Assembly: GCA_021157815.1 (NCBI GenBank)
Contig: JAGGVT010000038.1
Location: 1 to 14,900, forward strand
Direction: 5' to 3'
Length of the DNA stretch: 14,900 bases
Source: a bacterium
GTDB lineage: Bacteria > JAJVIF01 > JAGGVT01
Made by a program: the position numbers and the translations under genes. This document shows, piece after piece, positions 6,607 to 7,201 of the stretch; position 1 is the stretch's first letter; each line of letters starts with the position of its first letter. The notes below the pieces were generated by a model. That model was given only the letters and a program-made list of their open reading frames with translations, did no database searches and was not told where the DNA came from.

Positions 6607-6653
6607 TAGTATAGAAACCGAATCAAATAGCCCAGCAGGTCGAATAATACGTC

Positions 6654-6807
6654 ATTCCCGCGAAAGGGGCTGTTGAAAAAGGTCTGAATGTAGGGGTAGG
6701 TCTCTGTGCCTACCCTAAATATTGGCATAAATACAGGGCAACCACGGAGAGTTGCCCCTACGGTCTGGGATATAATAGGCTTTTTCAACAGCCCCGAAAG
6801 CGGGAAT
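6654..6807. repeat. Hairpin repeat split by a miniature element
   Basis: ATTCCCGC (6654-6661) and GCGGGAAT (6800-6807) are the arms of a small hairpin repeat with loop GAAA. The loop now holds the 130-bp element at 6666-6795, with GAAA on both sides. A variant of the same hairpin flanks the next element (6918-7136), so this is a local repeat family. Its position after the peptidase gene fits a transcript-end hairpin, although no U-run follows. Confidence 0.75.
6666..6795. mobile_element. Miniature element A (MITE, 130 bp)
   Basis: A non-coding element with perfect 16-bp terminal inverted repeats, GGGGCTGTTGAAAAAG (6666-6681) and its complement (6780-6795). It is flanked by a direct GAAA duplication (6662-6665 and 6796-6799). 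Inside are two further hairpins, around GGTAGG/CCTACC (near 6695-6715) and GGGCAAC/GTTGCCC (near 6736-6757). No transposase is encoded, so it would need one in trans; the parent family cannot be named from sequence alone. Confidence 0.8.
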
Positions 6808-6929
6808 CCATTTTTTTTTATTCAAATATAAGACACACATGAAAAATTGAGTAAATTGAAAACCTTAACCAGAAATGGAAAGACCTGCACGATAGTCGGA
6901 TTAAAGATAAAATTGGATTCCGGCTTTCG

Positions 6930-7125
6930 AGCCTGTCGGGAAAGGCATTGCAAACAAAATGCCCCAGCCCAGCCCTCCCCGCGAGCGGGAAGGGAGAATG
7001 TTGTCTTTTCCCTTCGCAAGTGTATAGACCGGGTAAATCGTTTGCAAATACAAAAATATTTCCCCCCGCTCGCGGGGGGATTAAAGGGGGGAATGAGATG
7101 TAAAAACAACCTTTCCCGACAGACT
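6930..7125. mobile_element. Miniature element B, copy 1 (196 bp)
   Basis: Terminal inverted repeats of 16 bp with one mismatch, AGYCTGTCGGGAAAGG, begin at 6930 and end at 7125. The element is flanked by a 6-bp direct duplication, CTTTCG (6924-6929 and 7126-7131). Removing the element and one duplication restores a hairpin of the type ATTCCGGCTTTCGCAGGAAT. Internally it carries GC-rich palindromes built on CCCGCTCGCGGG and CCCCCCGCGAGCGGGGGG. It has no plausible coding capacity. A second, inverted and interrupted copy starts near 14567. Confidence 0.8.
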
Positions 7126-7201
7126 CTTTCGCAGGAATGACATAATCTTGTTTCGCATGAATTACGAAATCTTGTTTCGTGGAATAGACAAAATCTTCAT
7201 C
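7122..7201. repeat. Imperfect 24-bp tandem repeat
   Basis: AATCTT recurs at 7144, 7168 and 7192, exactly 24 bases apart. The first two full units share AATCTTGTTTCG, and a shorter preceding unit (7122-7143) contains TTTCGCAGGAATGACAT. The units look like decayed copies of the right arm of the neighbouring hairpin repeat. The array ends about 20 bases before the promoter of the radical SAM gene. Confidence 0.55.

Follow-up and report, generated by a model that had tools for sequence, protein, structure and literature searches.

What brings two miniature elements into the loops of the same hairpin repeat? The question is raised by positions 6650 to 7142 of the window, by which we mean the whole stretch of 14,900 nucleotides that was analyzed, contig C219 of a draft genome of 3.2 Mb in 221 contigs. 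The original prediction had placed two elements, A and B, in this region, had regarded them as unrelated products of two transposition systems, and had proposed the hairpin loop as their shared preferred target and the hairpin family as a landing pad that protects genes.

Elements A and B and their host repeat

Element A is a 130-bp miniature inverted-repeat element (MITE) at 6666-6795, as predicted, with perfect 16-bp terminal inverted repeats GGGGCTGTTGAAAAAG. It is bordered by two copies of GAAA (6662-6665 and 6796-6799), the loop of hairpin 1, whose left arm ATTCCCGC lies at 6654-6661 and whose right arm GCGGGAAT, followed by a CCA tail, lies at 6800-6807. For B the prediction had given 6930-7125 and a duplication CTTTCG. 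An element and a hairpin are indeed found there, but the limits are better set one base wider at each end, because the leading G and the trailing C are conserved across B copies and the next flanking bases vary. B is thus a 198-bp MITE at 6929-7126 (GAGCC...GACTC; ends GAGCCTGTCGGGAAAGG / CCTTTCCCGACAGACTC) with a 4-bp duplication TTTC, which is GAAA on the other strand, at 6925-6928 and 7127-7130. The arms of its hairpin are ATTCCGGC at 6917-6924 and GCAGGAAT at 7131-7138, the latter followed by GACA, an inverted TGTC tag. This hairpin is imperfect and folds as DNA with -4.7 kcal/mol, compared with -9.0 kcal/mol for the hairpin of A when empty.

Both elements therefore duplicate the identical 4-bp loop, GAAA/TTTC, and the claim of two miniature elements in the same loop of the same hairpin repeat holds. 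They are not unrelated, since 12 of 17 end positions are identical, a value reached by 159 of 200,000 shuffles, and since they share the 4-bp target and have IS1182-like ends. Related ends and the same duplication in the same loop also argue against two transposition systems. Inside A, between 6690 and 6760, two short inverted repeats are present, GTAGGGGTAGG...CCTACCC and GGGCAAC...GTTGCCC.

The hairpins of A and B form, in inverted orientation, the two ends of a single head-to-head REP dimer (6650-7142), which had been missed before and in which both hairpins are filled: CGTC-ATTCCCGC[GAAA]GCGGGAAT-CCA...TGG-ATTCCGGC[TTTC]GCAGGAAT-GACA. Without A, B and one copy of each duplication the dimer has 155 bp, and relatives of this unit that cover 85% or more of it at 76-82% identity are present at five other loci (contigs C30, C182, C103, C206 and C17; the one on C30 shows 82% over 156 bp). 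A and B occupy opposite hairpins of one dimer in two more cases, on C206 (A left, B right) and on C150 (B left, A right). The published description of CGTC-1 REPs, or dRS3, gives a CGTC tag, an 8-bp stem beginning with AT, a 4-nt loop, a CCA tail and head-to-head dimers as their traits (PMC3733652). The hairpin of the window, in the following called F1, is CGTC-1-like in all of these: CGTC is located at 6650-6653, the 8-bp stem starts with AT, the 4-nt loop is GAAA, the tail is CCA, and inverted pairs spaced 60-132 bp occur on C17, C27, C30, C85 and C123. In contrast to the sections of that description considered here, in which loops filled by MITEs do not appear, F1 serves as a target in our genome.

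Some further variants of the repeat were observed. Three tandem 24-nt units (TTTCGCAGGAATGACATAATCTTG and variants) at 7127-7198 represent repeated half-REPs after the right hairpin, and similar GTCATTCCCGCGAAA-CAAGATTCC units are present at other sites. At least seven copies of F1 (C118:2881, C11:17281, C11:22942, C149:14955, C163:7480, C84:869 and C57:6678) carry the right stem GCGGGTTCTTTAGTCTGTCCTCAGA, a short extra sequence within the stem.

Relationship to IS1182

Element A has the properties of a MITE, with a length of 130 bp, multiple copies and no transposase gene of its own. Its right end has 24 bp in common with the terminus of a decayed element of the same genome (C90:4771-5765), which has A-type ends on both sides and contains transposase fragments matching the IS1182 model NF033551 (E values 8.8e-33 and 6.1e-14). 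In a genome of the Hydrogenedentota an element with exact A ends codes for an IS1182 transposase that scores above the curated cut-off (L259), so that A shares its terminal inverted repeats with IS1182-type elements both inside and outside its own genome. An IS1182-type element with A ends in a Rhodobacteraceae genome (L242) lies in AAAACAGTC[CGGGG]GACTGTTTT with a 5-bp duplication, and in a genome of the same class as ours an IS1182 element (L341) has, by eye, a 5-bp TGGAA duplication and an imperfect stem. Further ends of IS1182 elements in other genomes are GAGCCTGTC, GAGGCTGTC and GAGGTTGTTGAAAAA. On this basis A can firmly be classified as an IS1182-derived MITE.

The ends of B resemble IS1182 ends from other genomes, namely GAGCCTGTCC at L346 (11 of 16 positions), GAGCCTGTCG at L356 (10 of 12) and GAGGCTGTC at L352; none of these transposase elements has the exact B end. 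The palindromic or hairpin targets known from some IS1182 members (PMC5678879, PMC4923244) are found for copies of both A and B. B is probably an IS1182-derived MITE as well, an assignment based on the similarity of its ends and on its targets.

The sampled genome yielded no intact transposase gene bordered by A or B ends; the decayed copy on C90 is the only one for A. An intact 337-aa transposase (L152, C155:6729-7742) matches the IS1182 and IS5_4 models and scores above the IS5_4 cut-off; it lies at the end of a contig, and neither A- nor B-type ends were detected within the stretch examined. Among 385 genomes searched, no transposase with exact B ends was found, and the B 15-mer occurs in seven of them. 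Outside its own genome, paired B ends were found in one genome of the same class (G001), in elements of 396 and 170 bp with inverted arms; the B-type loci L373 and L377 of G001 have inverted arms and no direct duplication. The A-type ends of other genomes, whose pairing was too loose for an unbiased proof, give a mixed picture, with a loop duplication only at L242 and, weakly, at L236 and L292. Three IS1182 elements (L342, L352 and L356) have inverted-arm flanks. As stem score contributed to the ranking of their boundaries, the resemblance to the inverted-arm copies of our genome is suggestive and does not amount to a fair count.

Hairpin targets across the genome

The 15-base end of A has 308 matches genome-wide compared with 18 for a reversed-pattern control, and the 17-base end of B has 135 compared with 17. 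Complete copies were defined as paired ends in 391 kb of stretches around matches. The sample is thus enriched around matches and, as the genome was sampled, all copy counts are lower bounds. It contains at least 71 A-type pairs, length variants included, and at least 42 B-type pairs. In 57 of these copies (36 A and 21 B) 4 bp or more are directly duplicated and enclosed by an outer stem of 6/8 or better, and in another 18 (10 A and 8 B) inverted arms abut directly and a duplication is lacking. An outer stem of this quality is found at only 1.8% of random positions, which bears out the hairpin loop as a shared preferred target. About one third of the complete pairs lie outside the strict duplication and stem thresholds; many of these can be read by eye as the same hairpins carrying a point mutation or as chimeric sites with halves of two hairpins, and some are probably false pairings of ends. 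An analysis run independently of the stem filter gave a similar result: 67 copies have 4 bp or more of direct duplication, and in 62 of them (39/43 A and 23/24 B) its midpoint falls on the local dyad axis, compared with 108 of 2000 random positions (5.4%).

Other A-type copies resemble A at their ends and differ from it in length (190, 210 and 395 bp), which suggests several MITE subfamilies. A 453-bp B-type element (L210, C86:6141-6593) carries several internal tandem copies, each of about 32 bp, of a B segment. The contigs C7, C9, C19, C103, C50 and C115 start or finish inside a copy of A, which shows that A fragments the assembly, and given such contig ends the chimeric flanks may be assembly artefacts.

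The 63 hairpin sites with direct duplications, clustered with a stem threshold of at least 5/8, fall into 11 target clusters, which correspond to 9-11 truly different hairpins because a few are variants of each other. F1, ATTCCCGC[GAAA]GCGGGAAT, is used by A and B and has a duplication of 4 bp in 30 of 30 sites. A also uses F2, TGCGGGC[ATCCT]GCCTGCA (5 bp in 9/9), F3, GAGCGCCGCA[GTAGCC]TGCGGCGCTC (6 bp in 2/2), and F5, GTAGGGTGGAT[TTAAA]ATCTACCCTAC. B was found in G2, GCAGAGGGT[TTAA]ACCCTCTGC (4 bp in 11/11), in G3, CACCATGC[TAAA]GCATGGTG (4 bp in 5/5), which is also used by one A-type copy of 166 bp, and in G4, ACCTCTCAC[TAAC]GTTCGAGG. The length of the duplication (4, 5 or 6 bp) is therefore constant within a hairpin cluster and variable between clusters. 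DNA folding of empty F1 and G3 gave a loop that equals the duplication exactly; in F2, F3, F5 and G2 one or two bases pair inside the duplication, which then comprises the loop and closing pairs. Taken together, the duplication is centred on the hairpin and has about the length of the loop, a robust observation.

Empty copies were found for F1, F2, G2, G3 and G4. The arms thus lie outside the elements, and the possibility that they are part of A or B was rejected. For the F1 pattern 35 matches are exact and 48 near, and a few of the near ones represent filled sites. Most often the host is a REP dimer, which probably reflects the fact that no other hairpin of the genome is as abundant, and the copies in such dimers may in part have been amplified together with the dimer and not be independent insertions. 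A special role of the hairpin family of the window as a landing pad is not supported, since A and B also occupy many hairpins of unrelated sequence. Of 74 testable insertion sites, 6 fall within open frames of at least 150 aa, compared with 434 of 600 random positions at the same loci. This avoidance of long frames fits the idea of a landing pad that would protect genes, but it is already to be expected from the extragenic location of REP-like hairpins.

Most DDE transposases generate a duplication of roughly fixed length. A duplication length that varies and follows the hairpin points to structure, not sequence, as the target code. We favor, with a probability of roughly 0.78, that A and B are two related, IS1182-derived MITE families without a transposase which insert by recognition of a hairpin or cruciform shape and are joined near the stem-loop junctions.

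An unlikely, though not far-fetched, alternative is that a transposase dimer binds the palindromic duplex in a symmetrical manner, with cuts on either side of the dyad at a distance of 4-6 bp from each other, and that no extrusion is involved. The dyad-centred duplications agree with it, as do the targets TTAA and TATA, which lie in almost perfect palindromes where a loop is indistinguishable from the palindrome itself, and a regulator-like recognition of palindromes was suggested by Tobes and Pareja for REP-targeting insertion sequences (PMC1525189). The arms, however, are wholly different between targets and offer no half-site to read, and the duplication length shifts with the geometry of the hairpin.

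Very improbable is an insertion that is specific for the sequence of one or a few REP families and was followed by co-amplification of filled REPs in the manner of RAYT systems. F1 does have the largest share (30 of the 63 direct sites, and 85 A and 20 B ends) and nine Y1/RAYT-like genes are present in the genome, but the insertions are spread over nine or more hairpins whose loops and arms are unrelated, which disfavors it as a full account. Furthermore, insertions occur in both orientations (12 against 7 for A, with the REP tag as reference), F1 is occupied by A, B and several length variants, and the hairpins flanking the RAYT genes of this genome belong to other families. None of the nine Y1_Tnp genes has a ATTCCCGC hairpin within about 1.5 kb, which speaks against a RAYT with F1 as its own REP, and two of the nine are accompanied by other REP arrays, so that F1 does not have the character of a RAYT-mobilised REPIN. 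CGTC REPs reportedly lack a dedicated transposase (PMC3733652). As a separate observation, one REP-associated tyrosine transposase-like gene (L160, C85:595-870) has a nearby array of AGCCCGGGGA-AGCG-TCCCCGGGTT hairpins and another (L159, C182:9586-9906) lies between AACCCGGCA-type hairpins; both REP families differ from the host hairpins of A and B. That the arms belong to larger composite elements which move together with A or B is hardly credible, because empty hairpins are common (F1, F2, G2, G3 and G4) and A is found with entirely different arms, even though some A matches extend through the arms at 95-99% identity.

Proposed mode of insertion and comparison with known systems

According to the favored reading, insertion by recognition of hairpin shape, A and B would be internally deleted derivatives of IS1182-type insertion sequences, and an IS1182-type transposase would be supplied in trans. 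This enzyme would recognise the extruded hairpin or cruciform by its shape and join the 3' ends of the element, on the two strands, at or beside the stem-loop junctions. Repair would then copy the loop and produce the order arm-loop-element-loop-arm. The inverted-arm copies without a duplication could have arisen by hairpin replacement as in IS1272 or by recombination between two copies. In the inverted-arm copies of F1 the outer CGTC sides of the REP dimer are found on both flanks, and the sequence between the two loops is missing. An IS1272-type replacement of a large inverted repeat, recombination within one dimer between elements of the same family, or an assembly join would all give this same sequence.

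IS1272 and TnSha1, members of the IS1182 family from staphylococci, insert into inverted repeats of any sequence, and the hairpin is lost (PMC5678879, PMC4923244). The model of Wan et al. includes a branch 'c', in which joining at the two loops would lead to duplication of the loop; it was only drawn, and their own data showed replacement. A and B resemble IS1272 and TnSha1 in the sequence-independent hairpin target, in the presumed IS1182-family transposase and in the inverted-arm sites without direct duplication. In contrast to IS1272, which deletes or replaces the hairpin and makes no duplication, most copies described here keep the hairpin and duplicate 4-6 bp centred on the loop. With 57 copies of this kind and 18 inverted-arm copies without a duplication, they do not represent an IS1272-type replacer and match branch 'c' of the published model. 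They also differ from IS1272 and TnSha1 in being high-copy MITEs of 0.1-0.2 kb.

Specific insertion into REP palindromes is also a property of IS1397, IS621, ISPpu9/10, ISPsy8 and ISRm22, the last of which inserts at the axis of palindromy (PMC1525189). These insertion sequences, which belong to the IS3, IS110, IS4 and other families, are described as recognising the REP of their own host, whereas many unrelated hairpins serve as targets for the one element family considered here.

A broader proposal, which we consider possible but put forward tentatively, is that an IS1182-type DDE transposase recognises extruded DNA hairpins by their structure alone and that the geometry of the target would determine the outcome. 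Hairpins with a small loop would give loop duplications of a length set by the loop, large inverted repeats such as whole REP dimers would give IS1272-like replacement with inverted arms, and one system would colonise the hairpin repeats of the genome.

More than 60 sites in a single genome, distributed over about 11 hairpin sequences, represent a natural dataset with which the proposed hairpin mechanism of IS1182/IS1272 becomes directly testable, and which bears on the question why duplication of the loop is the outcome of some insertions and replacement of the hairpin that of others. Hairpin targeting may also explain the gathering of other mobile elements at REP-like repeats.
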